35,987 nt of DNA from Pelatocladus maniniholoensis HA4357-MV3 (GTDB lineage: Bacteria; Cyanobacteriota; Cyanobacteriia; Cyanobacteriales; Nostocaceae), in the NCBI GenBank assembly GCA_019359115.1, contig JAHHHW010000132.1, positions 1 through 35,987 on the forward strand, read 5' to 3'. The position numbers and the translations under genes are program-made. Of this stretch, positions 1 through 33,985 are shown piece after piece. The notes below the pieces were generated by a model. That model was not told where the DNA came from. It searched no databases and saw only the letters and a list, made by a program, of their open reading frames with translations. The number at the start of each line of letters is the position of its first letter. Within the stretch, counting starts at the first letter, position 1.

Positions 1-548
1 TCAAACACGAAATTAATTCTGTGAAAACAGAACTAGAACAAATTACTCCCAATCACCAAACCGAAATTGAATCTCTCAAACACGAAATTAATTCTGTGAA
101 AACAGAACTAGAACAAATTACTCCCAATCACCAAACCGAAATTGAATCTCTCAAACACGAAATTAATTCTGTGAAAACAGAACTAGAACAAATTACTCCC
201 AACCACCAAACCGAAATTGAATCTCTCAAAAATGAAATTAATTCTGTGAAAACAGAACTAGAACAAATTACTCCCAACCACCAAACCGAAATTGAATCTC
301 TCAAAAATGAAATTAATTCTGTGAAAACAGAACTAGAACAAATTACTCCCAACCACCAAACCGAAATTGAATCTCTCAAACACGAAATTAATTCTGTGAA
401 AACAGAACTAGCAAAAACTAACATACCAAATTACCAAGCAGAACTTAAAATCATCAATCTTGAAATGGAGTATATCAAAACTCAAATAAGGCAGTTATCT
501 AAAACAAATGGTGACACAAATGTAACAAATTGGTGGCGATTACGGTAA
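1..548 (+). CDS. Coiled-coil repeat protein, C-terminal part (5' end outside window)
   Basis: The reading frame is open from the first bases and ends at the TAA at 546-548, so only the C-terminal part is visible. It consists of about five near-identical 25-residue units (core INSVKTELEQITPNHQTEIE) and a diverged last unit, then a short tail ending NWWRLR. The Leu/Ile spacing with Glu and Lys between predicts a long coiled coil; each unit has one proline that could form a kink. No catalytic motif is visible. It lies directly upstream of an eCIS-type AAA ATPase on the same strand, so a structural or fibre role in the injection apparatus is possible, but that is inferred from position alone. An in-frame GTG at 21 is inside a repeat and is not a credible start. 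Confidence 0.7.
   Translation, partial: KHEINSVKTELEQITPNHQTEIESLKHEINSVKTELEQITPNHQTEIESLKHEINSVKTELEQITPNHQTEIESLKNEINSVKTELEQITPNHQTEIESLKNEINSVKTELEQITPNHQTEIESLKHEINSVKTELAKTNIPNYQAELKIINLEMEYIKTQIRQLSKTNGDTNVTNWWRLR
6..410 (+). repeat. 75-bp in-frame tandem repeat array
   Basis: Units start at 6, 81, 156, 231, 306 and (partial) 381, a period of exactly 75 bp, or 25 codons. Units differ at only a few positions: CAC versus AAT at the unit start, and AAT versus AAC before CACCAAA. Such near identity indicates recent expansion by slippage or unequal crossing-over. The array continues to the left edge, so the copy number is a minimum. Confidence 0.95.
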
Positions 549-601
549 TTCAGAAAAGATACTACAATTTGGCAACGGGTAATACAAACTTTAAAGCTTT
601 T

Positions 602-2773
602 ATGGCATATTATCCAACCTCTATTGAGCATATTTTGGCGGAGTTAGAGAGAATTGATCTGCTGATTCGAGTCCAAATATGGAGAATGCAGCACATTCAG
701 ACAGGTGACAACGAATTGCAGGGACTTTTGATTTCGGAACAAGAGATAGAGCAACTCCTCACAAAACCCATCGGTTTACCCCGTTGGGCAAATGTTCCGA
801 CACCATTGTCCTCAATCGAGGTTCAAACTGCCCTCAAAAGAATGACAGCTAATATTGCTCAATGTCAAACTGAGAGTATCCAAAAAAGTATCAAATTACG
901 CTTGCATGAATTAGTCTGTCACTTTCAACTCACACCAATTGACAGGGATACGCTACTAATTTGTTTAGCTCCCGAATTAGATTCGGGTTACGAGCGTCTT
1001 TATGCTTATCTTCAAGATGATGTGAGAAAGAAGCGTCCCTCTGTAGACTTGGTGTTGAATTTGCTCTGTGCAGATTTCAAAAGCAAGCTAACAACGCGTC
1101 AAAATTTCCTGTCTACTGCTCCCCTGCTCAAACATCAACTGCTGCATTTATTTGATGATTCATCACAGCAGCAAGTACCACTACTAAGTAAATATCTCAA
1201 ACTAGATGAACGGGTGGTCAATTATTTACTTGGTAGTGACGAACTCGACACCCGGCTTTTACCCTATGCTAAATGCACCTGGCCTCAAACGAAACTTGAA
1301 GATTTGTTACTGCCACTTGAAATAAAAGAACGCTTAGGCTTACTAGCCCAGGAGAAACAAGTAATAAAAACCGGACTAATATTTTACTTCCAAGGAACTT
1401 ACGGAGTCGGCAAGCACACTACTGCTGAGGCCTTTTGTCAGGAATTGGGAATTGGGTTGTTGACAGTAGAGTTAGAAAGACTATTGCAGGCGGAAGCGGA
1501 AGAATTTGAAACAATTATGGCTCTAGCTTGTCGTGAAGCAGTTTTGCAGTCAGCAGCTATTTACTGGGAAGACTTTGACAGACTTTTAACAGATGGCAAA
1601 GCCACTTGGCGATTAGCCCTACTGCGACAAGTGCAGGAGATGCATTTGCTGACCTTTTTAGCCGGTGATACTACCTGGGAACCATCCAATGTACAATCTG
1701 AATTGACCTTTTTGCGAGTGGAATTTCTTCTCCCAACAGCAGCCCAACGCGTGGAATTATGGGCGAAGTTTGTAGGGGAAGACATTGCATCGCTACCCGA
1801 TTTGGCGAACAAATTCCGTTTTAGCGGCGGACAAATTCGGGATGCGGCAGCTACGGCACGCAATTTAGCTTGCTGGCGATATCCAACGCAAGGGCAGGTC
1901 ACGATAAATAACCTCTACGCAGCATGTCGCTTGCAATCGAATCGCCAGTTAAGTGCAATGGCTCGCAAAATTACACCACGCTACAAGTGGTCAGACATTA
2001 TCTTGCCTGATCAACAAGAAGGCATTATACAAGAACTTTGTAATTACGTCAAGTATCGCAGCCGAGTTTATGACGAGTGGGGCTTTGAGAAAAAGCTATC
2101 TTTAGGTAAAGGGCTAAATATTCTCTTTGCTGGGCCTCCTGGTACGGGCAAAACAATGGCGGCTGAGGTTGTGGCGGGTGAATTGGAGTTAGACTTATAT
2201 AAAATAGACCTTTCGGCAGTGGTCAGCAAGTATATTGGCGAAACAGAAAAGCACCTTTCCCGCATCTTCCAAGAGGCAGAAACTAGTAATGCAATTCTGT
2301 TTTTTGATGAAGCCGATGCCCTATTTGGCAAGCGTACCGAGGTAAGTGATGCCCATGACCGCTACGCCAACCTTGAGGTCAGCTACCTCTTGCAAAGAAT
2401 GGAGGAGTACGACGGCGTAGTGATTTTGGCAACGAATTTCCGCAAAAATATGGATGAAGCGTTTGTGCGACGGCTGCATTTCAGTATCGATTTTCCTTTG
2501 CCAGATGAGAAGCATCGCCGCCGGATTTGGCAGAAGCTTTGGCCGGAGGCTACGCCTCGCAGTGCAGATTTGGATTTGGATTTTATGGCGCGTCGCTTTG
2601 AGATTGCAGGGGGGAATATACGCAATATTGCGCTAGCGGCAGCTTTTTTGGCGGCTGATGAGGGTGGGGAGGTGAAAATGTCTCACTTGGTGCGGGCGAC
2701 GAGGCGGGAGTATCAGAAGATGGGGAAGGTGTTGATGAACGGGGAGTTTGGGGAGTATGCGGGTCAGTTATAA
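602..2773 (+). CDS. Double-AAA ATPase of the eCIS (Afp15/Pvc15-like) type
   Basis: 723 residues. The C-terminal AAA module is complete: Walker A GPPGTGKT (511-518), Walker B with FFDEAD (D569, E570), sensor-1 region ILATN, and an arginine-finger-like VRRLHF. An N-terminal AAA-like module is degenerate, with Walker A GTYGVGKHT (265-273, His where Ser/Thr is expected) and a weak Walker B (YWEDFD), suggesting a structural half. ATPases of this build occur in extracellular contractile injection system loci and act in assembly or cargo loading. The two cargo-like genes that follow support that role. I chose ATG 602 because the sequence after it (MAYYPTSIEHILAELERIDL) reads as a natural N terminus. 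An in-frame TTG at 530 would overlap the upstream gene by 19 bases. GC rises and codon use shifts in the last about 200 bases. Confidence 0.85.
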   Translation: MAYYPTSIEHILAELERIDLLIRVQIWRMQHIQTGDNELQGLLISEQEIEQLLTKPIGLPRWANVPTPLSSIEVQTALKRMTANIAQCQTESIQKSIKLRLHELVCHFQLTPIDRDTLLICLAPELDSGYERLYAYLQDDVRKKRPSVDLVLNLLCADFKSKLTTRQNFLSTAPLLKHQLLHLFDDSSQQQVPLLSKYLKLDERVVNYLLGSDELDTRLLPYAKCTWPQTKLEDLLLPLEIKERLGLLAQEKQVIKTGLIFYFQGTYGVGKHTTAEAFCQELGIGLLTVELERLLQAEAEEFETIMALACREAVLQSAAIYWEDFDRLLTDGKATWRLALLRQVQEMHLLTFLAGDTTWEPSNVQSELTFLRVEFLLPTAAQRVELWAKFVGEDIASLPDLANKFRFSGGQIRDAAATARNLACWRYPTQGQVTINNLYAACRLQSNRQLSAMARKITPRYKWSDIILPDQQEGIIQELCNYVKYRSRVYDEWGFEKKLSLGKGLNILFAGPPGTGKTMAAEVVAGELELDLYKIDLSAVVSKYIGETEKHLSRIFQEAETSNAILFFDEADALFGKRTEVSDAHDRYANLEVSYLLQRMEEYDGVVILATNFRKNMDEAFVRRLHFSIDFPLPDEKHRRRIWQKLWPEATPRSADLDLDFMARRFEIAGGNIRNIALAAAFLAADEGGEVKMSHLVRATRREYQKMGKVLMNGEFGEYAGQL

Positions 2774-2905
2774 TTTGGGATTTTAGATTGTTAGAGTCAG
2801 GACGGCATTAGGAAGCAGCGTAGATTTAACAGAACGTAAAGAGCGGTTTATAAGGAAGCAAAATATTTTTGAAATTTGTATTATTTAATATCCAGGGATA
2901 ATATT

Positions 2906-3877
2906 ATGTTTCATCGTAAGCAGGGGCAGATATCATCCAAAAGCAATAAAGTTTTACAAAAGCAACAACAAAAAACGACGAAAATCGCAGATGAGGCACA
3001 TTCGATAGTTCAAAAGGTGAAAGCTGACCCTAGTTCACTAAGTGCAGATCAGATGTTAACCCTTCAGGAGACGATAGGGAATCGGGCAGCTAATCGGCTG
3101 TTAGCTGGTCGAAATGCAGCACCAGTGCAGGCAAAGTTGACTATTGGGCAGCCTGGGGACAATTACGAGCCGGAGGCAAAGGAAGAGGATGCGATGGGTC
3201 AGCAAGCATTCAAATCATCTGTAAGTGATAGATCAAAAGAAATAATACAAAGACAAGCTATCAAACTTGAAGGTGAGGAATTAAGTGACCCAATGAAAGA
3301 AAGATTAAACACCGCTTTTGATCAGTTTAACGCCAAGGTGTTGTCTACTTCATTTCTGTCCCAGGGTCAGACTAATCAAGTGGTAATTTGGGGAATCAAA
3401 AGTACGAATGACTTTAAAGACTATGGCAGCACAACTTTTTATATAGGCAATAGTAACCAAGGATATCAAGCACAAGACTATGGACAATTTACAGAAATCT
3501 GGCAATGGGCATTAAACAATCCTATACCAAAGGATATCTCAGTGCGAATAGTCATAGCTGTAAATTTAAGCATTAATAGGACTACGCAGCAATTGTTTGC
3601 AACGCTACTACACGAATGGCATGTACATGCTGTTAAGTGGAAAGGTCTGATCGAATATATACGAGAAGATAAAGGGAATTTTGCAGCACCATGGATACAG
3701 GGGCAGGGTTATGAAAGAAGGGGCAAAGGAGAGCATAAAGCTTATGCCAACATGTCCGACCAGGATATCGAATCGATGGTGGATGAACTAAATCTTGAAG
3801 AGAAAGACAAAAAAACTGTAATACAACTCTTAAAAAGGGATCGTGATCGGTATGACAAGAACACTGGGGAAATATAA
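2906..3877 (+). CDS. eCIS cargo-type protein with zincin-like C terminus
   Basis: 323 residues. ATG 2906 gives MFHRKQGQISSKSN, matching the N terminus of the gene at 4049 (MFYHQQRQISKKSN). Residues 1 to about 95 form a basic, Gln-rich leader ending in LTLQETIGNRAANRLL and the motif KLTIGQPGDNYEPEA. In DUF4157 (eCIS-core) proteins this motif precedes the core domain, but here the core is missing and the chain runs directly into another domain. That domain has LLHEWHVHA (H236, E237, H239, H241) and a later GEHKAY (E276, H277). This suggests a zinc-binding site, although the spacing is not a standard HExxH, since H+5 replaces H+4. I infer an injected effector with hydrolase-like activity; the enzyme class is uncertain. 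The ORF is intact. Confidence 0.6.
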   Translation: MFHRKQGQISSKSNKVLQKQQQKTTKIADEAHSIVQKVKADPSSLSADQMLTLQETIGNRAANRLLAGRNAAPVQAKLTIGQPGDNYEPEAKEEDAMGQQAFKSSVSDRSKEIIQRQAIKLEGEELSDPMKERLNTAFDQFNAKVLSTSFLSQGQTNQVVIWGIKSTNDFKDYGSTTFYIGNSNQGYQAQDYGQFTEIWQWALNNPIPKDISVRIVIAVNLSINRTTQQLFATLLHEWHVHAVKWKGLIEYIREDKGNFAAPWIQGQGYERRGKGEHKAYANMSDQDIESMVDELNLEEKDKKTVIQLLKRDRDRYDKNTGEI

Positions 3878-3938
3878 GTTAGGGCGGCGGACGAATCCTC
3901 AGCAAGAGAGCGATCGCCTTAAATGCCAGAAGTGTAAT

Positions 3939-3993
3939 CACTCATCAGTAGGTTTGCTTGATTAGGGAAACCTAATAAATCTGATCATGAGTG
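3939..3993. repeat. Nested inverted repeat between the two cargo genes
   Basis: The outer arms are CACTCAT (3939-3945) and ATGAGTG (3987-3993), with CAG/CTG continuing inward. The inner arms are TAGGTTT (3949-3955) and AAACCTA (3968-3974). The RNA would fold as a long, interrupted hairpin. There is no following T-run, so a processing or stability element or a small mobile repeat is as likely as a terminator. Confidence 0.55.
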
Positions 3994-4048
3994 CAATTAA
4001 TATAGACAGATTGTAGAGCAATAATTTACACCACGGATATGTAGCATT

Positions 4049-5728
4049 ATGTTTTACCATCAACAGAGGCAAATTTCCAAGAAAAGCAACAAGGATTTGC
4101 GAAAACGACAACAGACAACTTATAGACCAGTGCCACAAACAAATGCTACGCATCCAGCAATACTCATTCAGAGAGTCAAACTTAATCCTAATTCGCTAAA
4201 TACAGATGATGTGTTGACACTTCAAGAAACAATTGGCAATCGAGCGGCTACTCAGCTTTTGGCTAACAGCAGTGGACAGTACGTACAGCCAAAACTAACA
4301 ATAGGAGAACCAGGAGATAAGTACGAGCAGGAAGCAGATCAGGTAGCAGCAGAATTTGTGCAGTATATGAATGCGCCTGCGTTACTACAGGCAAGTCAGA
4401 ATGAATCCATCCAACGACAGGATATGGAAGATGACGAGTTGAATATGAAGCCAATGTTGCAGCGTCAGCCTGATGGTGGGGCAGCAACATCAGACTTGGA
4501 AACTTCTATCAATCAGGCACGGGGTGGTGGACAACCACTAGCAGACAATATCCGGGAACCAATAGAGCAAGCATTGGGGGCTGATTTCAGTGGGGTGAAG
4601 ATTCACACAGATGCCCAATCTGACCAGTTGAATCAATCGATTCAGGCTCGCGCTTTCACAACGGGGCAGGATGTATTTTTTCGGCAGGGGGAGTATAATC
4701 CAAAAAGTCGGGGTGGACAGGAGTTGCTGGCCCATGAGTTAACTCATGTAGTGCAGCAGAGTGGAGGGACTGTGCAGCGATCGCCTTACCGAGCAGAAGA
4801 TTTTGCTGCAATATCGAACCACGATGCCACTAACCCCCCACAAATCCAGTTATACAGTGCGATGGAAGCGTCCGAGCTAATAGAGAATAAGTATAAAGCG
4901 TGGAGACAATGGTATTACGAAGTTTGTATACCAGCCATGCAAACAATAGCGGCCAAAGCAGGTCAAGACTTTAATCAATATTTAGCCACCAAGTCCCAGG
5001 ACGAATTTGAACAAGCTATGACCTCTCTACACACAGAGGCAAAAGATGAGCGCTACTCTAGCTGGAGCGAGAATTTCAGGCGACTATCTTCAACTGACAA
5101 TTCATTAGTTCAATCAGATAAGTACCCGGGAATGAATCGTGTATCAAGAACAAATATACTGGTTAGCAATCTTATAAATGAGAACGACGAGAATTTACAA
5201 AGATTCATAACCCTATACAACAGTGATGATATGACTTGGTATAGAGGTCTTAGCATCTCCCACTTTTCTTACAAGCAATTGCGGGAAGCGGGTGTGTTAG
5301 GGTCTGAAGGTACGGCGGACATACCCACATTCACGATGGACAATGACTCCCCGACCCGTTGGCTTCCAGGCTTGTATAACGCACAATTGGCTGATGCTGT
5401 AGCCCACCGAGTGGATGCTGAGGATGCGGGAATAAGAGAAATCGCAATGAGGAAGGACATACCGATAGGAGTCACGGTTCAGTACCCGATAAAACCACCA
5501 ACGCATGTAGCATTCCTGAATGATGGGGAACAAGTGATTCGAGGACCGATCACGGGTGCAAGAGTATATCGAGTGATTCTATTGGGGCCAAGCGGCTATA
5601 GTTATCGATTGAAAAACGGAAGCACAAACGACCTTCCTCCCGCAGCACCTTATCAAGCAAGCGCTGGGTCTCAAGCGATAATGGCGTGGGAGACTGCCAT
5701 TGACACATGGCTGTTGAACCATCCGTAA
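4049..5728 (+). CDS. DUF4157 (eCIS-core) cargo protein with ADP-ribosyltransferase-like C terminus
   Basis: 559 residues. The leader (about 1-95) contains LTLQETIGNRAATQLL and LTIGEPGDKYEQEADQVA, shared with the preceding gene. The DUF4157/eCIS-core domain (about 165-240) shows ALGADFSGVKIHTDAQ, ARAFTTGQDVFF and LLAHELTHVVQQSGG, with a zincin motif HELTH at 229-233. Proteins with this core are known as cargo of contractile injection systems. The C-terminal 300 residues resemble ADP-ribosyltransferase toxins by motif order: WYRG (R399), then a TFTMD-containing region, then NDGEQVI (D492, E494), where a [E/Q/D]xE pair is expected, followed by a VYRVI beta strand. The ART call is my inference. 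An HIP1-like GCGATCGCC lies near the junction between core and payload. No signal peptide or membrane segment is evident. Confidence 0.75.
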   Translation: MFYHQQRQISKKSNKDLRKRQQTTYRPVPQTNATHPAILIQRVKLNPNSLNTDDVLTLQETIGNRAATQLLANSSGQYVQPKLTIGEPGDKYEQEADQVAAEFVQYMNAPALLQASQNESIQRQDMEDDELNMKPMLQRQPDGGAATSDLETSINQARGGGQPLADNIREPIEQALGADFSGVKIHTDAQSDQLNQSIQARAFTTGQDVFFRQGEYNPKSRGGQELLAHELTHVVQQSGGTVQRSPYRAEDFAAISNHDATNPPQIQLYSAMEASELIENKYKAWRQWYYEVCIPAMQTIAAKAGQDFNQYLATKSQDEFEQAMTSLHTEAKDERYSSWSENFRRLSSTDNSLVQSDKYPGMNRVSRTNILVSNLINENDENLQRFITLYNSDDMTWYRGLSISHFSYKQLREAGVLGSEGTADIPTFTMDNDSPTRWLPGLYNAQLADAVAHRVDAEDAGIREIAMRKDIPIGVTVQYPIKPPTHVAFLNDGEQVIRGPITGARVYRVILLGPSGYSYRLKNGSTNDLPPAAPYQASAGSQAIMAWETAIDTWLLNHP

Positions 5729-6246
5729 ATGGTCGGATAACATTGGGGTGTTGCCACCCCGCAGTCCTCTAAGAACGGCTCGTGACTGTTACCAATCAAG
5801 CCGCTCAAGCTGAGGTAACTTCCCAGTTGTTGAGTGTTGAAGAAAGCTTCTGCAGTTTGAAATTCACTCATCAGCAAACGTTGTTTCCAAATCGCAGCAT
5901 ATGTTCAATATCAAATCTTTGTCTGTAGCTTTCTATTAAGTATTTCTACTTAATTGCTCGAACCAATAGTTTTTTTCGCGATCGCCTCTACCTGAAAAAC
6001 TAGTTCTTTTATACTACATCTGGAATTTCAAAATGGGGGTTAATACTCTATTTATTTCAAAATGAGAATTGCTGGCCAACCCTCACACAGGTAGCACATT
6101 TTGGAGCTACACAAGAAAAATCTCCTGATTTCGCACAAGAATTGTCAGAGAAAATTTCCAGTGATAACAACGAGAAGCTAGGTGATGAACCTCCTTTTTA
6201 AGGTAATACTAAGATGAATACTTGAGTATCCAGCTTAAGAATTAAG
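5729..6246. other. Gene-poor spacer between eCIS and partition regions
   Basis: No intact gene is seen. The stretch holds an 8-bp perfect hairpin (ATTAAGTA 5935-5942, TACTTAAT 5947-5954, loop 4), which could be an operator or centromere-type site. It also contains a coding remnant near its right end, described separately, and the short direct repeat TTTCAAAATG at about 6026 and 6056. Confidence 0.5.
6015..6201 (+). pseudogene. Possible gene remnant (C-terminal peptide without start)
   Basis: An open frame follows an upstream stop and ends at the TAA at 6199-6201. It encodes a peptide ending FAQELSEKISSDNNEKLGDE plus four residues, with normal protein-like composition but no start codon or ribosome site upstream. 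I read it as the tail of a decayed gene. The family is not recognised, and a chance open frame cannot be excluded. Confidence 0.3.
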
Positions 6247-6297
6247 AATAATGTCATTATGAGTTAGTCCAGACACTCATAGTGGCATTATTTTTTT
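6247..6297 (+). terminator. Strong hairpin with T-run upstream of parA
   Basis: The arms are 18 bases (6247-6264 and 6275-6292) around a 10-base loop. The two DNA mismatches are G-U pairs in RNA. A run of seven T (6291-6297) follows. This is a canonical intrinsic terminator for plus-strand transcription. It ends only 37 bases before the parA ATG, so it either insulates parA from upstream transcription or acts as an attenuator in the parA leader. Confidence 0.8.
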
Positions 6298-6334
6298 ACT
6301 CTTTCTCAAGAAGACTTTGATAGAATCACTTCAA

Positions 6335-7135
6335 ATGAGTAAAAAAACACCCTTGAAAATGCCAAAAAATCAGACTAAAATAATTGCCGCCTTCAACCAA
6401 TCTGGTGGAGCTGGTAAGACCACCACAGTTCATAATATTGGGTATCATCTTGCTCAAAAACACCGAGTCTTGCTTATAGATATGGACCCACAAGCAAGTC
6501 TGACAACCTTTATGGGAATAGAACCCAAGGAGCTAAAAGATGAGCAAACAATATATGCTGCTATCACCGAACGCGGGCCGCTATATATTTGGCAAGAACC
6601 CATCCATAATATGCATCTTATACCCAGCAATAATGCTCTAACCGGAGCTGAAATTGAACTAGGGCGCGATATCACAACTGACGCTCGACAAAAACTCAAG
6701 TTTGCACTTGAACCAATAGTCAGCGAATATGATTACATCTTAATTGATTGTCCTCCCTCACTAGGATACCTAAGCATCATGAGCGTCATGGCAGCTACCC
6801 ACCTGCTGATACCAGTTCAGACAGAATATAAGTGCTACGCTGCTACAGAACAACTGCTAACAACAATCGCCCGTCTTAAGAAAGGAGGACACAAGGACTT
6901 ACAAATCGCAGCTTTTATCCCAACTCAACACGATAAACGCACCCTCCAACAATCAGGTATACTCGAAACCATTAAAAAACAAATCGAAGGACGTGCTCAT
7001 ATAACTACACCCATTCCCAAATCGATAGACTTTCCAAGTGCATCACAAGCGCATCTCCCGCTTGTTCTGTGGAAGAAAAATCACCCGGCAGTTAGTATTC
7101 TAGAAGAAATCACAAATTACCTCATCAAACTATAA
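6335..7135 (+). CDS. parA: ParA-family partition ATPase
   Basis: 266 residues from ATG 6335, with AAGAAG about 20 bases upstream; an in-frame TTG at 6317 is less likely. The Walker A loop is NQSGGAGKTT (21-30): the catalytic K28 and T29 are present, but the ParA/MinD signature lysine position is Ser23. VLLIDMDPQASLTTF (Walker A' and switch region) and YDYILIDCPPSLGYLS (Walker B) are clear. There is no N-terminal helix-turn-helix extension, so this is a short ParA (type Ib-like size). Only 2 bases separate its stop from parB, indicating translational coupling. Its role is ATP-driven plasmid segregation with ParB bound to a parS site. Confidence 0.92.
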   Translation: MSKKTPLKMPKNQTKIIAAFNQSGGAGKTTTVHNIGYHLAQKHRVLLIDMDPQASLTTFMGIEPKELKDEQTIYAAITERGPLYIWQEPIHNMHLIPSNNALTGAEIELGRDITTDARQKLKFALEPIVSEYDYILIDCPPSLGYLSIMSVMAATHLLIPVQTEYKCYAATEQLLTTIARLKKGGHKDLQIAAFIPTQHDKRTLQQSGILETIKKQIEGRAHITTPIPKSIDFPSASQAHLPLVLWKKNHPAVSILEEITNYLIKL

Positions 7136-7137
7136 TT

Positions 7138-8124
7138 ATGACTAAACAAGTTGAACTAAAAGCATACGATAAAAACGCACTCGATGATTTATTTAGTGGT
7201 ACTAGCCAAGAAGATTCAGGCAACAAAAACACTATCACCCTGCCAATAGATTCAATTATTCTCCCCCCATCGCAACCTCGTCGGTACTTTGACCCGCAAA
7301 AAATTCAATCTCTTGCAGAAAATATTAAAGAAAATGGGTTGCTCTCCCCGATTGTAGTTAGATCCACAAGTAGTAACGACGAATTTGAACTAGTTGCAGG
7401 TGAACGTCGCCTGCGAGCAAGCAAACTTGCCGGACTCGAAGATATTCCCGTCAATATAATCGACTGTGATGAGAATGCTGCTGCTCGCATCCGCTTGGTT
7501 GAAAACCTCCAACGCGAAGACCTCAACGCTTATGAGGAAACTATCGGTATCGTCGAACTACTTGCAGCGATATTGAATATTGACCAAAAGGATGTAGTTT
7601 ATCTCCTAAACCGGATGCTAGATGAGGAAAAAAATAAAGTTCCCCAAAACGTTTTGGGGAGTAATGAAAGTCTTATCATACAAGACTTGTTCTCTAAACT
7701 TGGCAAAATTACCTGGCAGTCGTTTGCCACAACGCGCCTACCTCTACTCAAACTACCAAGTGATATCCAAGATGTACTCATAAGAGGGCAGTTAGAGTAT
7801 ACCAAAGCCCATGCGATCGCACGGGTAAAGAATGAACAAGCGAGGGGAAAAATAGTAAAGCAGGCGATTGATGAGGGGTTGTCACTATCGCAGATAAAAG
7901 AGATAGTAGAGAGTATTATGTCAGCAGGTACAACAGATAAAAAAGAAACCCCCTTTCAACAGCTAGCATCAAGAGGAAAAAATGTACAAGGACTATTAAA
8001 AAAACATAGGAGGTTCATAGAAAATGACAAAAAAATAACAAATAAAATCAATCGGCTGTTAGATCAGATAGAAGAACTATTTCCATCTGAAACAGAGAAT
8101 ACAGAGATGGAAAACCTAAAATAA
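7138..8124 (+). CDS. parB: ParB-family centromere-binding protein
   Basis: 328 residues. The N-terminal ParB/Sulfiredoxin domain shows ILPPSQPRRYFD, ENIKENGLLSPIVVR, the CTP-binding box GERRLRAS (88-95) and LVENLQREDLN. The central helix-turn-helix part covers about 130-255, with TKAHAIARV and the GLSLSQIKEIV region. A lysine-rich tail may dimerise. In cyanobacterial ParB the segment around NVLGSNE is a variable linker, and here its DNA is a perfect 20-bp palindrome. parB is the second gene of the parAB operon, followed by a convergent inverted repeat. It loads on parS and slides as a CTP-gated clamp, by family knowledge. Confidence 0.92.
   Translation: MTKQVELKAYDKNALDDLFSGTSQEDSGNKNTITLPIDSIILPPSQPRRYFDPQKIQSLAENIKENGLLSPIVVRSTSSNDEFELVAGERRLRASKLAGLEDIPVNIIDCDENAAARIRLVENLQREDLNAYEETIGIVELLAAILNIDQKDVVYLLNRMLDEEKNKVPQNVLGSNESLIIQDLFSKLGKITWQSFATTRLPLLKLPSDIQDVLIRGQLEYTKAHAIARVKNEQARGKIVKQAIDEGLSLSQIKEIVESIMSAGTTDKKETPFQQLASRGKNVQGLLKKHRRFIENDKKITNKINRLLDQIEELFPSETENTEMENLK
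7641..7660. repeat. Perfect 20-bp palindrome inside parB
   Basis: The sequence TCCCCAAAACGTTTTGGGGA is fully self-complementary. It lies in the coding region for the linker between the N-terminal and HTH domains of ParB. It may be a parS-like or autoregulatory site, or simply a codon coincidence. Confidence 0.9.
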
Positions 8125-27036: not shown

Positions 27037-28116
27037 TTAATTACAGCGTAGTTTCTCAGGATTTATTTGAAACTGTATACTAGTCATCTTCCGCTTTCCA
27101 GGTAGCTCTTGGGCATCTAAAATATAGCCTTCAGCTTGCAGTTCCTCTATAGTCCGCCACAGAATTTGGTTGTTCCTAGACAAGTTACTGCCCAACAGGT
27201 CTAGATTTTTGAACAGATATTGCTTAGAAATCACTAAATATTGTCCATCAATTAGCTTATCCCATTTCATTCGGCTAGCAAGATAAACTAGCAGTTTCAT
27301 CTTGTAGTCATGCTTGGCATTACTCCCCAGCTTCTGCTTAGTGTCTATGCTGTTGGAGAATAGTATGTAATCTCCCGTTCGCTCCGATCCCTCAAAAAAT
27401 TCCAGCGCCACCGTATAAGCATCTGCCAGTTCATAAGTATAATCGGCAGCCTTGGCTAAATCGAAATCTCGTGGCACATTGTCGATTTCGTAATCTCGGA
27501 TGCGGAGGATACTTTTGACGATGACCTTCGCTCCCATTGTGTTGCCTTTTTTCAAAGACTTGGCAAACACTAGCTCAGTTCTATGGAGAGCAACCAAGTC
27601 TTGGTTAAGCTGCGATCGCGATCTGGCTGTGAAACTACCATCCTTTGCACGGGTATAGCCCAAGCTTTCCAACAAATCATTGGAACGAAAACAAACAAGA
27701 CTTCCGTTGTCCTGCTTTCGCGCTTCCTTGTACAAAAACAGCACAATCGCAACCTGGCGTGGATTTAAAAAGGTTAGCAATGCTTTAAATAAGCGCTGAA
27801 TTCGGCGATCCTGAATCTTCTCCAGTCCTTTGCTAATTCCTTCTTCTGTACAAACTTTCAGATTTAAGTTGGCATACTGGGCTTTCAGATCCTCCCACTC
27901 CTGAGCAGAAAGTTCCTCTAATTGAATACGACGAGTCAATGCGACTTCGCTCTCGTCTTTAGAGTCAGCGTTAACTCGCATCTCTAAATAATAACCATCT
28001 GCATCAGCATGGAGAATGGGCTGTTGTACATCAGGGTTTCTAATTGATGCTCCTGCTCTAGGCAATACCATCAGCAGTTCTCCATCCACGGGAAAACCAG
28101 TATCTTCCTTACTCAC
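27037..28116 (-). CDS. Putative plasmid replication initiator
   Basis: 359 residues from GTG 28116-28114, with AGGTAA upstream. No textbook motif is visible, but the shape fits an initiator. There is an N-terminal half of about 130 residues, then RRIQRLFKALLTFLNPRQVA, a winged-helix-like segment (about 140-190, SNDLLESLGYTRAKDGSF and RSRSQLNQDLVALHRTEL), and a second such segment near the C terminus (QYLFKNLDLLGSNLSRNNQI, TIEELQAEGYIL). It lies 565 bases from a ten-copy iteron array and transcribes away from it. Iteron-binding Rep proteins commonly consist of two winged helices. I infer the Rep role from context and fold impression; other DNA-binding functions remain possible. Confidence 0.5.
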   Translation of the reverse strand: MSKEDTGFPVDGELLMVLPRAGASIRNPDVQQPILHADADGYYLEMRVNADSKDESEVALTRRIQLEELSAQEWEDLKAQYANLNLKVCTEEGISKGLEKIQDRRIQRLFKALLTFLNPRQVAIVLFLYKEARKQDNGSLVCFRSNDLLESLGYTRAKDGSFTARSRSQLNQDLVALHRTELVFAKSLKKGNTMGAKVIVKSILRIRDYEIDNVPRDFDLAKAADYTYELADAYTVALEFFEGSERTGDYILFSNSIDTKQKLGSNAKHDYKMKLLVYLASRMKWDKLIDGQYLVISKQYLFKNLDLLGSNLSRNNQILWRTIEELQAEGYILDAQELPGKRKMTSIQFQINPEKLRCN

Positions 28117-28157
28117 ACTTATTACCTAACTTACAATACCTTCGCCAAAATAAAGAG

Positions 28158-28500
28158 GTGGCAGCAGGATTTTTTTTAAAGGCTCCTCCCTTACAGCTAA
28201 TTTCTAAGATGCGCTATGACTCTGCTCTGTACATCCCCTATGAAAATCCAGACCCTAGTCGCAAGTGCCGTCGTAAATACGGTGATAAGATTGACTATTT
28301 ATTTATACCAGATAAATTTCTCAAAAAGACTGAAACTGTTGATAATATTCGTACAGATTTTTACCAAGCTCAACTTCTCCATAAAGAATTTTCTCAAGCG
28401 TTAAATGTTGTAATTATAGTGCGGACAAATATTGCAACATCACATCGAACTCATGCTGTCTTATTTTCAACTGACTTGAATTTAAGTTACGTGCATGTAG
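28158..28500 (+). pseudogene. IS4-type DDE transposase fragment
   Basis: A central segment of a transposase without its ends: [58 protein letters not shown] and NIATSHRTHAVLFSTDLNLS. The match to the conserved region of Nostoc IS4-superfamily transposases ends abruptly after NLSY, and no start or C-terminal domain remains. A diverged second copy of the same region lies at the right edge of the window (35863 onward). Confidence 0.7.
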
Positions 28501-28519
28501 TGGTTAGGCAACATTAAAG

Positions 28520-28661
28520 TTATGGGTAGAGGCAAGGAAACCCCGTTATTGCCGAATTGAGGCGACGTAAGACCAATAAGCTACAAAGTAGAAAGGCTGT
28601 TATCAGTGATAACCAGAAGCTCACACCGTACCTGTACGGCTGTCGGTGTTGGGTAGTTCAC
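28520..28661 (+). mobile_element. IS200/IS605-like right end with structured-RNA features (remnant)
   Basis: This stretch contains a perfect hairpin GTTATCA-G-TGATAAC (28599-28613). A second structured block follows, foldable either as CCGTAC-CT-GTACGG (28626-28639) or with outer arms ACACCG/CGGTGT (28623-28649), then GGGTAGTTCAC ending at 28661. The order of stem-loops ending in TTCAC resembles the 3' ends of cyanobacterial IS605-group elements, where the TnpB guide RNA scaffold is encoded. No tnpB or tnpA gene is left; a short frame ending at the TGA at about 28557 may be the last codons of tnpB. Identification is by resemblance only. Confidence 0.4.
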
Positions 28662-28680
28662 TTAACAAATCTTTATGAAG

Positions 28681-28994
28681 ACCTGTGACTCCGGCGTATG
28701 ATTTTTACGCTTTTACCTGTGACTCCGGCGTATAGTTTTACCTGTGACTCCGGCGTATAGATGTCTCGTTTACCTGTGACTCCGGCGTATAGTTTTACCT
28801 GTGACTCCGGCGTATAGTTTTTTGACTCAATTTTTTGAAAGGCTGACGCTGTAAACTATCCAAAAATTGACCTGTGACTCCGGCGTATAATTTTACCTGT
28901 GACTCCGGCGTATAGATGTCTCGTTTACCTGTGACTCCGGCGTATAGTTTTACCTGTGATTCCGGCGTATAAGCCACCTGTGACTCCGGCGTAT
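28681..28994 (+). repeat. Ten-copy iteron array, probable origin of replication
   Basis: The 19-base iteron ACCTGTGACTCCGGCGTAT starts at 28681, 28715, 28740, 28772, 28797, 28870, 28895, 28927, 28952 and 28976. All are identical except the ninth (GTGATTCC). Copies 2-5 and 6-9 have the same spacing (25, 32, 25) and nearly the same spacers (AGTTTT, AGATGTCTCGTTT), so a four-iteron block was duplicated with a 155-bp offset. The 54-base gap between blocks (28816-28869) is AT-rich with two TTTTTTGA runs and could be the unwinding element. I see no convincing DnaA box. An initiator-like gene and a primase gene flank the array divergently. Confidence 0.85.
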
Positions 28995-29450
28995 AAGCGA
29001 TTTTGCCCCCTTGATATCAAAATCTTTCAATGCTAAGTTTCAAATTTGACAGCCTGCTTGTCATGCCTGTTGTCATTTAAAAAGCCGAGGAGAACAGCAA
29101 AGGTTCTCTCCCGACTTACCTAAATACTAGGACTTTGTTAAAGTCAACGCAGCGCTAACTGCGTGGAACAAAAGCCCAGATATAAACATATCTAGACTTT
29201 AACAAACTTCCCGCTTTATGGTAAGCACACAGAACTGTACTTTTGCTGCTACCCCGGCTCCGTAAACTAAAAATTCACGGAGTTCGTATTCAATGGAAGT
29301 AAGCTCTAAAAAAATTGCATTATTTGATTTTATCAAGCTAAATACTGGCATTAAACACATCTATTGCGCTATTTACTCTATATATCGTAATCAGACATTA
29401 GTTATCTTCTCCAAGTTCATGATTACTTTGAACGAGGAGGGCGCTCAGTG
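28995..29450. other. Origin-to-primase intergenic region with inverted repeats
   Basis: There is no gene. It holds a long stem AAGCCGAGGAGAAC / GTTCTCTCCCGACTT (about 29081-29117), a perfect 12-bp inverted repeat TTTGTTAAAGTC (29134-29145) / GACTTTAACAAA (29195-29206), and a hairpin CTCCGT/ACGGAG (about 29257-29282). These may control the primase gene or belong to the replication origin. GAGGAGG at 29434-29440 is the ribosome site of the next gene. Confidence 0.6.
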
Positions 29451-32400
29451 ATGATTACACAGCTTTCAGCATTTGAAATTGATACCTCACAAGCGATTAA
29501 ACAGCTAGAGCTTTTGGGATACCAACGGGGTGATGCTATTTATGTCCGGGCTTTCTTACCCAAAGAAGACCCCCGTTATGCTCCTAACACAGGACGTAAA
29601 GCTGATAAACTCAACTTCAAACAAATTTTGCAGTGGCAGCAGCAAGGTTACGGCATATATTTTGTGATTAATGGTGGGGGTCACAAAAATGAAGACGTTC
29701 AACTGTGCCGTGCGGTCTTCATTGAGCATGACGACGTGGAAATAGAATTACAGCGGAATTTGTGGCAAACACTTTCGCTACCAGAACCAACCTTTCAAAT
29801 CCAGACTCGCAAATCCGTGCATTCTTACTGGGTGTTTGAAAAACCCATCCCAGTTGAAGAGTGGAAGCAGTTGCAAAATGACCTACTAACCTACACTGGT
29901 GGTGACCCAGCCATCAAAAATCCCAGTCGGGTGATGCGATTAGCTGGTGCATGGCACATCAAGCCAGGGGAAAAACCGCAAAGGTGCGATATCATCTCCC
30001 AGTCTGGTATTAGGTACACCTATGAGAAATTACGTTCCTCTGTGCCGTTGTCACAGAATCCTGAATTAGTCCAACGGGAGCGTAAAGCAGTGCAATCAGC
30101 AGCCCGAGCGTTTGCACACGAGCAGCAGTACACTCGCTATGAAGATATCCCTGTGCCAGTGCCAGTTGCGATACCGCTTGAAGTCTGTCTTTCCAAAGAG
30201 TCTCGTACTCTGCTCAACTTTGGGATAAACGAGGGGGGTCGCAATACCAACGGAGCCAAACTAGCACGAGACTTAATTGGCACTGCTAATTATCTTACTA
30301 ACATCGGTCAGCAGTTTGACGGCGACCCACAACTACTGTTGCAGGACTACGCTAGTCGTTGTAACCCACCGCTACCAGCCAAAGAAGTAGATGTCATCTG
30401 GAAATCAGCCGAAAAAGACCGCCCTAGACCCAGCTGTACTCCAGAAGGTGTGGAAACCTGTATTAGGGCTTGGTACTGGAACACTTGTATTAAGCCGAAT
30501 CAAAATTCATTGGCTAGTTCTGGTAGTCCTCCTATAAATCCTGGGTTTGGTAATGTTTCCAGTGTTGGGAAAAAGTTGCCTATTTCAGATGTCGCACTGC
30601 ACAAACGCATTCTAGAAATTTTGAGTAGTTGTGATTCCGGGTCAGGGCAAGCAGGAGCATTGATGGAGTTGGCTGCTTTGGTGGGATATCCTTATCGGCA
30701 GATTGAGCAGCTAGCTAAGCTACTTACTTTTGAAGCAGATTTGCAAACTGACACTTTAGTTGCCACACAGAAGCTTTCGTCTCTACTAAAAACTCATCCC
30801 CACCAACTTTACCTTACCCGATTGCTTGAACCTCAGTTCGCCCAACTTTTGATTGATACCGCTAAGGCCATGCCCACAGCTCCTGAATTTTTATTTACGA
30901 CACTCTTAGGAACTGCGGCATCTCGAATTGGGTCGGCAGCGCGAGTAATTGTCAAGCCGTCTGCAAAGTACGCTCAACCGATGGTGATGTGGACGAGCAT
31001 TGTCGCTGACTCTGGCTCTATGAAAACTCCAGCTCAACGGTTAATTATTGACCCCTTGGTGGAATTAGAAGCTGAGGCTTTTGAGCGCTATCGGATGGAA
31101 GTGGCTAAATACAATAAGCTACAAACAGTGTGTAAAGGCAAAAAGCAGGACGACTCACAACAGGAGCCAGCAACAGCACCCACTCGCCAGCGCTATCTAA
31201 CTAAGGACAGCACACTGGAAACATTGCAGCGAATTCATAGTGAAAATCCTCGGGGACTGCTGTACTACCGGGATGAACTAGCAGGGTTATTCAAAACCCG
31301 TAATCAATATCGCGGTGGTTTAGGGGCTGATGAAGAGCAGGAACTCGATCAATTCAATGGGTCTGCAATTATCTATGACCGCTCAGACAAATCTGTGTGC
31401 TTACCTAAGAGTGCTATCTCACGTACAGGCAGTATCCAGTGGGAAGTTTTAGCCACTATGATGGGTGACCACAACGACTGCAACGGCAGTTTTGCCCGAT
31501 GGCTGTTTTGTGCTGCAAAGTCTCCCAAACGTTACCTGCGGTTAGTTGGAGAAAGTACTGCTCCCGATACTGGTATCTCTCAAGCACTACGCCAGCTTTA
31601 CATAAAACTCGGCCATGTGCCAGAGCAAGATTATTTTTTAAGCACGGAAGCGGCTATGTTGTTTGAGGCGTGGCAGCATTCTCTCGTAGATGCCCAAGTT
31701 GCTGAGGAGTCCTATGGACTGAGAGTAGTCTACCCCAAGATTGAAGCTTATACAGCGCGGTTGGCACTGTGGTTACACATCGTCAATGCTGTCTTAAGGA
31801 GTGAAACTCCGAGCCAAGTCATCTGTGGTAACACGATGGAAAAGGCCATTGAGCTAGCAGCTTATTTTCTGTGGCAACATAAATCAATTCATGCTCAAAA
31901 CTCTCCAGAATCTGGGCTGATGTCTTGGGGTCTGAAAATCCAGAAGGTGGCTGAACGTCTGGGAGGGGCTACAGCTTCCATGCTCAAGAGTAGCATCCGC
32001 GCTTTCCGCAAAAAACCGACTTTTGAAATCCGGCGACTGATGGAAATGATGGCAGCTGCGGGTTGGGGTCGCGTTGAAAATAAAGGGTCTAACTTAGTCT
32101 ATGTGCCAAATGGTTTGCCACTAAACGAGATTGACAAAATTGACAGAAATTTGACACCAGTGTCAATCCTTCAAACCCAGAGCACTCCTGGATTTGACAA
32201 TGAAATTGACTCATTTGACACAAATCTGTCAGCACCTCTTTCTTCAGAGAAAGTCACTAATTGCTACTCAAATCCCTCGTTACGATTGGAAGATGTAGAG
32301 TTACGTCAATTTGTCAATTCAAACGCTCAAATGCCTACTGCTACTAGCACTGATTTGATTGACACTAACTGTCAATTGGAGCGTCAATTGTCAACGGATG

Positions 32401-32816
32401 AATGGTCAAATATAGAATTTCTAGGCAATAGTCACGATGATGATTCGTCCCAGTTCCTTGGAGGAAATGATGTACCAACCCCTCTGCCATCAAATGGTAA
32501 TGCTGCGGAATCATTATCTGGCCTCTTACAAGAATCTACTGAGACAGTAGGTGCCAAAGTCAGTGTTGACTTAAATTTCCCGAATGCTAATGCCCAGACA
32601 GAGCAAGATGTGAACTCAACAGTTACAGGTAGTAAATCAAACAACCACAAACTTCAGCCAGTCGAAATTTTGACGGCGGCTGGGGAGTGGATTAGTGGAT
32701 ATTTCATTGATGCTTGTGTCACTGTTGCCAATTTAGTAGGGCGATTTAGTTTGTTTGATGCAGACGGGACAATGCATGTCTTTGAAGGACAAATCCGAAG
32801 AGCATCATCAGGCTAG
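29451..32816 (+). CDS. Plasmid primase/helicase-like protein (AEP primase + DUF3987)
   Basis: 1121 residues from ATG 29451 (GTG 29448 is adjacent), with AGGAGG 10 bases upstream. The N-terminal domain shows archaeo-eukaryotic primase motifs: VFIEHDD (E92, D94) for metal binding, KSVHSYW (S122, H124) for nucleotide binding, and NPSRVMRLAGAWH. A primase C-terminal helical region ends with a CNPPLPAKEVDVIWKSAEKD motif (about 300-320). The DUF3987 region begins at about 460: a Walker-A-like loop VADSGSMKTP (518-527) lacks the usual glycines, and Walker B is LLYYRDELAGLF (D608, E609). The last about 250 residues are low-complexity and polar, with a final folded piece (PVEILTAAGEWISGYFIDAC). It is adjacent to the iteron array and likely primes plasmid replication. 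Confidence 0.8.
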   Translation: MITQLSAFEIDTSQAIKQLELLGYQRGDAIYVRAFLPKEDPRYAPNTGRKADKLNFKQILQWQQQGYGIYFVINGGGHKNEDVQLCRAVFIEHDDVEIELQRNLWQTLSLPEPTFQIQTRKSVHSYWVFEKPIPVEEWKQLQNDLLTYTGGDPAIKNPSRVMRLAGAWHIKPGEKPQRCDIISQSGIRYTYEKLRSSVPLSQNPELVQRERKAVQSAARAFAHEQQYTRYEDIPVPVPVAIPLEVCLSKESRTLLNFGINEGGRNTNGAKLARDLIGTANYLTNIGQQFDGDPQLLLQDYASRCNPPLPAKEVDVIWKSAEKDRPRPSCTPEGVETCIRAWYWNTCIKPNQNSLASSGSPPINPGFGNVSSVGKKLPISDVALHKRILEILSSCDSGSGQAGALMELAALVGYPYRQIEQLAKLLTFEADLQTDTLVATQKLSSLLKTHPHQLYLTRLLEPQFAQLLIDTAKAMPTAPEFLFTTLLGTAASRIGSAARVIVKPSAKYAQPMVMWTSIVADSGSMKTPAQRLIIDPLVELEAEAFERYRMEVAKYNKLQTVCKGKKQDDSQQEPATAPTRQRYLTKDSTLETLQRIHSENPRGLLYYRDELAGLFKTRNQYRGGLGADEEQELDQFNGSAIIYDRSDKSVCLPKSAISRTGSIQWEVLATMMGDHNDCNGSFARWLFCAAKSPKRYLRLVGESTAPDTGISQALRQLYIKLGHVPEQDYFLSTEAAMLFEAWQHSLVDAQVAEESYGLRVVYPKIEAYTARLALWLHIVNAVLRSETPSQVICGNTMEKAIELAAYFLWQHKSIHAQNSPESGLMSWGLKIQKVAERLGGATASMLKSSIRAFRKKPTFEIRRLMEMMAAAGWGRVENKGSNLVYVPNGLPLNEIDKIDRNLTPVSILQTQSTPGFDNEIDSFDTNLSAPLSSEKVTNCYSNPSLRLEDVELRQFVNSNAQMPTATSTDLIDTNCQLERQLSTDEWSNIEFLGNSHDDDSSQFLGGNDVPTPLPSNGNAAESLSGLLQESTETVGAKVSVDLNFPNANAQTEQDVNSTVTGSKSNNHKLQPVEILTAAGEWISGYFIDACVTVANLVGRFSLFDADGTMHVFEGQIRRASSG

Positions 32817-32986
32817 GTGCAAGCACAACTTTAACATCTACTTTTCTTCCATTCATCGCAGTATCTTGTGTTCAATTTTACTCAAAACTAAGGGAGTGAG
32901 ACATACTGTAAAAACGGATAACAACTGTATCCTAAGCTGAGAATTTCCCGTACAAAAGTTTCAGCTGTTTTTTAAAGGTATTAATT

Positions 32987-33985
32987 ATGACAGTTGGAAA
33001 ACTTAAATTAAAACCTGGTCAAGAAGTTAATGTAAACAAAAGTGACAAACGGGTAAAAAGAAGTGATACTGAAATTTCAGTCACCACAACCTGTAATTCT
33101 TCTGAACAAGAGTTAGTAGAGCACGAACCCAAGCCAAGGGAAGAATTTGCAACAGAGTCTGAATTACCGACAGCTGATACTGTAGTTGTTGCGGTCGAAG
33201 TGCTGGAGGAGCTAACCGAGGAGGAAAAAGCTGACCGTCACAGATTAGAGTTAAAAATAGAACGGGCATTTTATGAAGCAGGTTGTGCCTTAAAGGCACT
33301 GCGAGAACGGCGGCTATACCGGAGTACTCATAGAAGTTTTGAGGAATACTGCCGCGATCGCTTTAATTATAGTCGCGACACTGCTTACCTGAAGATGGCG
33401 GCTGCTGTTGTCTATGACAATATCCAGAAATTTTTGCCGACCAATGGTCGGCAAACTCCTATGCCGACCAACGAACGTCAGTTACGTGATTTAGCTAAAG
33501 CGAATTTGGAACCAGAGGTTCAAGCGGCTGCATGGTTGCAGGGTGTAGAAGAGGCAGGCGGTAAAGTTCCAAGCGGACGCATTATTAAGGGAATTGTGGA
33601 ACAGCTCAAGGAAAAGCCTCTGCTGCTTGCCAGTGATTTTTGCCAAATAGGTGACGTATTTACCTTAACTAGGTTAGAGGGTACTGAACGCAAATATAAT
33701 GGCTGTTGGGCGATCGCAGTTGTCCTTAAAGAATTTAGTGTAGAAGTGGATGTTCATGACACTACTCTAAACGTGAAACCTGAAAACCTCAACAAAATTG
33801 ATTCTCCGGAAGTACATCGCCAACTACCACAAATCAAAAAACGCATCAAGCGTTTGCGCGATTATGGAATACTAGATCGCTGTGCCTACACAGTGTTGGA
33901 GTCTCTGGGACGACAGACTTACTTGACCCCAGTCGAGGAAGGCTTGTTGGAATGGTTGGAGAAATATTATGAGGATAATAGCTGA
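32987..33985 (+). CDS. Plasmid DNA-associated protein of unknown function
   Basis: 332 residues from ATG 32987, with AAAGG upstream. The first 70 residues are charged and disordered-looking. A conserved helical region follows: EAGCALKALRERRLYRSTHR, then SFEEYCRDRFNYSRDTAYLK and NERQLRDLAKANLEPEVQAA, a build seen in ParB-like or KorB-like accessory proteins on plasmids and phages. Residues about 215-265 form a small beta domain (GDVFTLTRLEG...NGCWAIAVVL), and the C terminus is helical. It lies 170 bases behind the primase gene on the same strand. I infer DNA binding for replication or copy control, without a recognised family name. Confidence 0.6.
   Translation: MTVGKLKLKPGQEVNVNKSDKRVKRSDTEISVTTTCNSSEQELVEHEPKPREEFATESELPTADTVVVAVEVLEELTEEEKADRHRLELKIERAFYEAGCALKALRERRLYRSTHRSFEEYCRDRFNYSRDTAYLKMAAAVVYDNIQKFLPTNGRQTPMPTNERQLRDLAKANLEPEVQAAAWLQGVEEAGGKVPSGRIIKGIVEQLKEKPLLLASDFCQIGDVFTLTRLEGTERKYNGCWAIAVVLKEFSVEVDVHDTTLNVKPENLNKIDSPEVHRQLPQIKKRIKRLRDYGILDRCAYTVLESLGRQTYLTPVEEGLLEWLEKYYEDNS
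33434..33454. repeat. Inverted repeat in coding region (9-bp arms)
   Basis: TTGCCGACC (33434-33442) and GGTCGGCAA (33446-33454) are perfectly complementary around AAT. ATGCCGACCAACG follows at 33461 as a partial direct copy. It may be an operator or a coding accident (PTNGRQTPMPTNERQ). Confidence 0.75.

Follow-up and report, generated by a model that had tools for sequence, protein, structure and literature searches.

A composite leader shared by core-bearing and core-free cargo candidates of a cyanobacterial extracellular contractile injection system

Which part of a cargo protein might mark it for loading into an extracellular contractile injection system (eCIS), when one of two neighbouring cargo candidates has the DUF4157 (eCIS_core) domain and the other does not? 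The question is posed by a contig of the cyanobacterium Pelatocladus maniniholoensis HA4357-MV3 (assembly GCA_019359115.1, contig JAHHHW010000132.1, here C132), analysed in its entire length of 35,987 nt as the window of this study, on which two adjacent genes, c1 and c2, encode proteins with a common N-terminal leader and different C-terminal payloads. The original prediction, made from the letters of the window, took this leader for a modular loading signal of a contractile injection particle. The reading we prefer, with a probability of roughly 0.65, is that c1 and c2 are eCIS cargo candidates in which an N-terminal head would act as the loading label, a box following it would be a displaced zinc-ligand helix of the DUF4157 core, payloads are exchanged behind the leader, and the core itself is absent in a minority of members.

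The likeness of the two proteins and their subsequent divergence are as first described. Their leaders are 53% identical across about 100 aligned residues, and a whole-protein BLASTP alignment (45% identity, 141 amino acids (aa), E 3e-27) runs past the leader through a QRQ/acidic linker to end near residue 133 of c1 and 139 of c2, beyond which the C-termini are unrelated (best payload alignment 25 aa, E 0.17). Inside the leader, LTLQETIGNRAA is identical in c1 (aa 51-62) and c2 (aa 56-67), LTIG occupies residues 78-81 and 83-86, and YEPEA in c1 (87-91) corresponds to YEQEA in c2 (92-96). The core is likewise confined to the second gene: PF13699 (eCIS_core) matches aa 163-240 of c2 (E 1.6e-32), the single match to this family in the genome, whereas searches of c1 against Pfam and NCBIfam give nothing up to E 1, and its best domain reaches 1.0 bit against a profile built from c2's core with filters off. 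That 1.0 bit is all that speaks for a core remnant in c1 (EGEELSDPMKERLNTAFDQF), whose start BLASTP aligns as acidic linker, and we do not claim one; nor is HEWHVH in c1 accepted as a zincin site, as its spacing is not HExxH (a loose form of the pattern occurs in one other cargo, L086, as HENLIH, and a tighter form in no other open reading frame (ORF) of the set). Among 101 aligned leader codons, identity is 69%, 71% and 41% at positions 1, 2 and 3, and 18 of the 53 identical leader residues use the same codon. Since positions 1 and 2 are conserved and position 3 has diverged, the separation of c1 and c2 is old, with the protein sequence held, and a recent tandem duplication is ruled out as the source of the shared leader. 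Read singly against the published features of eCIS-associated toxins, the N-terminus of c2 has a hydropathy of -1.79, two aromatics in the first eight residues and a charge of +6, and that of c1 has -1.05, one aromatic and +3.

An eCIS context had been predicted from the double-AAA ATPase upstream, and the genes to the left of the window bear it out. The genome's only two Phage_sheath_1 matches sit on contig C131, the last 127 bases of which are identical to the first 127 of the window (an exact suffix-prefix overlap), and the 75-bp tandem repeat found there (Tandem Repeats Finder (TRF) and a genome scan) has all 11 of its genome matches at the end of C131 and the start of C132. The exact overlap, lying inside this genome-unique repeat, physically links the structural genes of C131 to c1 and c2 at the level of the assembled sequence. 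They run, in order, from Pvc16_N through a carboxypeptidase-regulatory-like protein, two sheaths, a gp19 tube protein, an unassigned 121-aa protein, a second gp19, a 1123-aa repeat protein, CIS_tube/LysM, the GPD hub, spike, PAAR and gp25 to two J-like proteins, P2 I and a fibre with a Peptidase_G2 domain; sheath, gp19 tube, GPD/spike/PAAR, gp25, baseplate J and Pvc16_N exceed their Pfam cut-offs, and the second J-like protein falls under its own. The window adds the end of the fibre gene, the Pvc15-type AAA protein (a winged-helix domain and two AAA stretches) and, as the first and second genes 3' of the latter, c1 and c2. By sequence, c1 and c2 close off, on its 3' side, a complete eCIS operon split between C131 and C132 in the assembly.

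If the leader is a label, it should be separable from what it labels. In a sample of 386 genomes of the phylum, 71 loci around matches to a leader profile built from c1 and c2, together with the window and two stretches of C131, gave, after six-frame translation, 85 ORFs with the leader profile, 70 of which carry the core (by the profile from c2's core). For pair comparisons we used the 74 ORFs in which leader and payload each span at least 60 aa. Within loci, 14 of 15 cargo pairs share the leader at E<=1e-10, and in one of these 14 are the payloads also alike (E<=1e-3). Of 300 pairs sampled between loci, 108 meet the same leader threshold, with a median of 38.5 bits versus 128 within loci; this is the fair baseline because the ORFs were chosen for having a leader. 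With the head defined as the leader minus its last 32 residues, seven pairs of genes from different genomes that have homologous payloads (E<=1e-20 across 120 aa or more) carry heads that match each other at 0-18 bits, whereas the best head match in a gene's own genome, at 23-140 bits, exceeds the partner's in every one of the 12 comparisons that could be made (they involve 11 genes, L082 being counted twice and two genes having no local comparator), although for four of the 11 genes it amounts to only 23-30 bits. Across 63 cargo the best match lies in the own genome for 30 heads (genome-label shuffles: mean 2.1, maximum 9) and for one payload. As homologous payloads carry unmatched heads and each head has its match nearby, the payloads move and the heads stay, a pattern in the sequences that fits a head serving as a loading label, a function that we infer. 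The predicted modularity therefore holds towards the payloads, but a single loading signal is too simple a description of the leader, the last third of which, PGDxYExEAD, behaves like a displaced piece of the core.

In the PVC-metallopeptidase family the signature is HExxHxxQ-E, with the glutamate on the third helix (PMC3482391), and in the VgrG2b domain structure, orthologues of which are often annotated DUF4157, the zinc ligands are H935, H939 and E983 (PMC6899460). To place the ExEAD motif relative to the core, 109 distinct core ORFs were reduced to 100 by dropping nine fragments (at most seven of those kept come from Spirochaetales or plasmid loci); upstream denotes a box-profile match or the pattern in the 220 residues that precede the core, and downstream the pattern within about 42 residues after it. 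Seventy cores have the motif only upstream, 18 only downstream, three on both sides and nine on neither (Fisher 1.5e-10), so that the PGDxYExEAD box precedes 73 of the 100 cores and 88 have the motif on one side only; the loci were picked by leader or by absent box, which makes the 70:18 ratio no population estimate. Downstream, ExEAD starts 29-33 residues after the first histidine of HExxH in 21 of 21 cases, and a control window about 100 residues further on holds the pattern in 0 of 100 (some sequences end before this window does). The 100 cores were also placed on a tree, weakly resolved from few columns, on which the downstream-only label requires six changes, at least four of them on well-supported branches. 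Two of the three cases with both motifs group with the downstream cores, as the transfer of a leader together with its box onto such cores would produce. We take ExEAD to resemble M48 peptidases. Most likely, the box is the third zinc-ligand helix, moved in front of the HExxH core in this cargo class, and this portion of the leader should probably be counted with the core. As far as the sequences go, the leader is therefore composite, an N-terminal head joined to an LTIGxPGDxYExEAD box. If the box does derive from the DUF4157 metallopeptidase, c1 has retained one fragment of the core, in a variant form (YEPEAK; the core-free L097 has YEQEEN).

Cargo without the core recurs. A 37-position box profile matches 102 places in the 386 genomes and the core profile 116 places in 40 genomes; 82 of the 102 box places have an in-frame core in the ORF span and 20 do not, and 83 of the 116 core places have a box. 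Eight of the 20 were set aside (four in G127 at contig edges, two in one G127 fragment beside a core in another frame, one in G352 beside an other-frame core, and one in G018, outside the core search, whose locus has no core at E 0.1), which leaves 12 intact core-free ORFs in nine genomes: c1; L053 (G087); L046, L047 and L090 (G376); L073 and L081 (G193); L075 (G340); L092 (G213); L097 (G060); L088 (G352); and L114 (G101). Pfam eCIS_core is found in none of the 12, and four have named domains, namely Lipase_3 (L053, L081), Ntox11 (L092) and RNAse_A_bac (L114). As c1 does in the window, L092 and L097 each have a core-bearing neighbour whose leader they share (84% and 66%). The Ntox11 payload of L092 is 46% identical over 612 aa to that of the core-bearing L093, and the payload of L046 is 46% identical over 518 aa to that of the core-bearing L078; the same payload therefore occurs with and without the core. 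L088 (6076-8331) seems to keep about the last 15 core residues (THGLTHVVQQ; domain independent E value (i-E) 4e-4, whole-sequence E 0.064 in a 13-sequence search), possibly a relic of core loss by deletion.

The payloads themselves are diverse. Pfam was run on 75 of them (L088, L114 and 73 of the 77 payloads of leader ORFs, after removal of four from contig edges or fragments), and at E<=1e-4 it returned 16 families, each in one or two members, most payloads matching nothing. They include Ntox11, Ntox16, Ntox1, RNAse_A_bac, WHH, a non-specific endonuclease, Lipase_3, transglutaminases, an AvrRpt2-type peptidase, OTU, a PI3/4-kinase domain and OmpA. By analogy, this spectrum is the polymorphic-toxin pattern described for the PVC-metallopeptidase (PMC3482391), and the payloads would accordingly be candidate toxins. 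The c1 payload found no relative in the searches made, from which viral and metagenome contigs were left out, and the c2 payload has no family and gave no result in a viral-contig search. An ADP-ribosyltransferase identity considered for the latter found no profile support and is not claimed. Separately, a stretch of about 90 residues in the c2 payload resembles cysteine synthase B (CysM; PDB phmmer E 6e-4, and E 4e-2 in the plasmid search) with the rest of the enzyme lacking, a likeness that we leave unexplained.

Leader and injection system also co-occur across genomes. The leader profile matches 32 of the 386 genomes and Pvc16_N 39; 31 of the 32 leader genomes are Pvc16_N-positive versus 8 of the 354 others (Fisher 4e-37, the lists being compared by eye), and for the box profile the figures are 28 of 30 versus 11 of 356. 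The head type of c1 and c2 recurs in cargo of the eCIS loci L065, L096 and L100 (25-31% identity to c2) and also in L067. Outside cyanobacteria, a collection of 84,980 species searched with two exact peptide patterns, which are blind to distant copies, yielded one relative of the leader, in a Spirochaetales metagenome-assembled genome, where an MF...LQETIGN...PGDVYE-EAD leader precedes eCIS_core, with an in-frame stop separating the two (L113, 7935-8621); an adjoining ORF reads like a shortened AAA protein, a name given from reading only. Among six plasmid loci compared (one of Oscillatoria) of 92 records matched, a box-like segment lies before the core in Ensifer, Caballeronia and, weakly (i-E 6e-4), Rhizobium, and after it in Streptomyces; the Deinococcus locus has none by profile.

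Several observations weigh against our interpretation. By locus, the association with eCIS is looser than by genome: within stretches reaching at most about 12 kb per side, 30 of 67 leader loci encode a protein homologous to an eCIS structural protein or the AAA protein of the window and 37 do not, so that much leader cargo lies away from a recognisable operon. G346 has leader cargo with neither Pvc16_N nor a sheath match, G018 has a box match without Pvc16_N, and c2 finds no leader in the three other genomes of the genus, where two weak core matches occur in G388 only. As for the box, nine of the 100 cores lack the motif on either side and three have it on both, the relatedness of the cores means that they are less independent than the Fisher value implies, and 10 of the 12 core-free ORFs keep an intact ExxAD box, which a pure zinc-ligand role fails to explain; phmmer finds no solved structure for residues 1-250 of c2, and the analogy with VgrG2b rests on papers. 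The hydropathy of the c1 N-terminus is ordinary within the window (Mrp -1.09, MCP -1.01), and single-sequence structure models of c1 and of the c2 payload are too low in confidence for use (predicted local distance difference test 40.6 and 34.8). G346 deserves mention in its own right: it is a one-contig genome with leader-and-core cargo ORFs (L074, L084), either orphan cargo or the cargo of a divergent particle.

On our preferred reading, the first 75 or so residues, the basic head with the LQETIGN segment, would most likely be a loading label recognised by the local particle, and the adjacent Pvc15-type AAA protein would probably take c1 and c2 by their heads and thread them into the tube, as Pvc15 does with the signal peptides of the Photorhabdus virulence cassette (PVC). 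Payloads would be swapped behind the leader as in polymorphic toxins, most members, c2 among them, carrying the peptidase-like HExxH core behind the displaced helix, and c1 would either dispense with that core or borrow it. The earlier conclusion that the first protein shows the leader working without the core goes beyond what c1 can tell, c1 being a candidate cargo and a core supplied in trans by c2 being an alternative. In that alternative the DUF4157 core is needed for loading, and c1 would be matched to its neighbour's core through the shared leader. It draws on the three core-free ORFs that lie within 3 kb of a core, at 1357 nt (window), 2630 nt (G213) and 2492 nt (G060), all of which share a leader with the core-bearing partner, on the binding of the adjacent core-free effector Sle1 by the DUF4157 protein Sle2 in Streptomyces lividans (PMC13277306), and on the chaperone role, in cis or in trans, proposed for DUF4157 (PMC11297309). 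We nonetheless consider it unlikely, if a serious contender, because the other nine of the 12 core-free ORFs have no core on the contig or one more than 900 kb away (although several contigs are short and the genomes carry cores elsewhere) and because Cgo1 and Cgo2 of AlgoCIS load independently with no interaction seen, though both of these carry the core (PMC8894135).

Alternatively, c1 could be a relic in decay, descended from an old cargo copy, deprived of its core and no longer taken up by the particle. Its box without the EAD aspartate, its payload without a detected relative and the core loss by deletion that may be visible in L088 are all consistent with decay, but an intact ORF of 323 aa, the conservation of leader codon positions 1 and 2 against 41% identity at position 3, and the recurrence of core-free architecture in nine genomes, with recognisable enzyme or toxin domains in four ORFs, make it improbable. 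The head might also be a mere mark of local duplication with no loading role, payloads simply diverging faster than leaders; local duplication would equally make the best head matches cluster within genomes. We rate this the most improbable of the alternatives, since homologous payloads in different genomes bear unmatched heads, each of its own local type, which requires exchange of part against part, and since the third codon positions in the window are far diverged. We suggest more tentatively, and at less than even odds, a broader statement. In it, the eCIS cargo of cyanobacteria would form a polymorphic toxin system in which the constant element is an N-terminal label matched to the particle rather than DUF4157. 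The latter would be a gluzincin module that can be dispensed with or rearranged; its third zinc-ligand helix would have switched sides repeatedly and could persist after loss of the HExxH part.

Table 1. Features of the cargo genes and adjoining operon end in the window.
Feature	Position	Strand	Remarks
c1, core-free cargo candidate	2906..3877	+	323 aa, intact ORF
c1 head	2906..3055	+	aa 1-50, basic and hydrophilic
c1 LTLQETIGNRAA segment	3056..3091	+	aa 51-62
c1 PGD-YExEA box	3128..3181	+	EAD -> EAK; box profile E 8.5e-9
c1 payload	3221..3877	+	aa 106-323, no detected relative
c2, core-bearing cargo candidate	4049..5728	+	559 aa, intact ORF
c2 head	4049..4213	+	aa 1-55
c2 LTLQETIGNRAA segment	4214..4249	+	aa 56-67
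c2 PGD-YEQEAD box	4286..4360	+	aa 80-104; E93 putative displaced zinc ligand
c2 eCIS_core (DUF4157)	4535..4768	+	HELTH aa 229-233 = 4733-4747
c2 payload	4781..5728	+	aa 245-559, no family
75-bp tandem repeat in coiled-coil stalk	1..411	+	TRF; 127-bp overlap with C131; genome-unique repeat
Tail-fibre-like gene, 3' end	3..548	+	gene starts on C131; Peptidase_G2 IMC domain and coiled coil
Pvc15-type AAA protein	530..2773	+	winged-helix N domain, two AAA stretches; Pfam WHD (PF22977) 1.4e-56, AAA 2.8e-35

The surroundings of the cargo genes offer some further observations. The assembly breaks inside the stalk repeat of the tail fibre (window 1-411; L005 9556-9873 at the end of C131), so that the true number of repeats may differ from the assembled one. 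The 1123-aa protein of C131 (L004 15972-19343), between a gp19 tube gene and CIS_tube, has long near-identical internal repeats, and its sole Pfam match, GDH_ACT3 (E 5.9e-6, over the cut-off), looks implausible. Directly 3' of the cargo genes is a ParA/ParB-like pair (6317-8124), and replication-type ORFs lie further right (27037-33985), both named from translations only. The gap between c2 and ParA contains no ORF of at least 80 aa and is overlapped by four of 37-68 aa, so there is no obvious immunity gene, and promoter- or terminator-like sites in 2600-6400 do not exceed what shuffled sequence gives.

Parts of this picture are already known, namely a shared N-terminus with different C-termini and a constant peptidase with variable toxins (PMC8894135, PMC3482391), and a core-free eCIS effector beside a DUF4157 protein (PMC13277306). 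A conserved eCIS loading sequence has been reported as undetected and the role of DUF4157 called elusive (PMC11297309), and DUF4157-type cores have been proposed to release the toxin or act as a chaperone (PMC11297309, PMC3482391). In the available parts of the open-licence literature we found no conserved leader common to core-bearing and core-free cargo, no relocated ExEAD motif and no test of local heads against travelling payloads, which is weak evidence of absence; a search on the motif letters returned no eCIS work by title. A leader that stands in one operon on core-bearing and core-free cargo, with payload homologues in both states, makes the question of loading separable from that of DUF4157, and each becomes testable, the one as loading by the head without the core and the other as participation of the YExEAD box in a zinc site. 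The 37-position box profile already finds cargo candidates without the marker domain and, if the label rather than DUF4157 is what counts, the box would be a search handle for cargo missed by DUF4157-based searches.

The closest parallels lie in other injection systems. In AlgoCIS of Algoriphagus, Cgo1 and Cgo2 fill the tube lumen and have a similar disordered N-terminal part and different C-termini (PMC8894135); they too are two eCIS cargo genes with a shared N-terminus, but both carry DUF4157, which c1 lacks. The thylakoid-anchored contractile injection system of Anabaena is likewise cyanobacterial, with two putative effector genes beside the cluster, Alr3311 and Alr3312, both of which contain DUF4157, unlike c1 (PMC8894136). 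PVC signal peptides are N-terminal loading signals handled by Pvc15, in which an N domain is combined with tandem AAA domains, as in the AAA protein here, but the signals are about 50 aa long with 'rare homology', though groupable by alignment (PMC11495950), whereas here a head of about 75 residues plus the box is common to core-bearing and core-free cargo. The PVC-metallopeptidase polymorphic toxins of Zhang et al. (2012) combine a constant N-terminal HExxHxxQ-E peptidase with variable C-terminal toxins, Ntox11 included, with the glutamate after the histidine helix (PMC3482391); here ExEAD mostly precedes the core and some members are core-free. Sle1 and Sle2 of Streptomyces lividans pair a core-free effector with a DUF4157 protein much as c1 stands beside c2, but Sle1 has a tape-measure-like coiled coil, and the available part of the account mentions no leader shared by the two (PMC13277306). 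Finally, the RIX and MIX markers of type VI secretion system effectors, compared by description, are also N-terminal or adaptor markers of polymorphic effectors, serving another secretion system.

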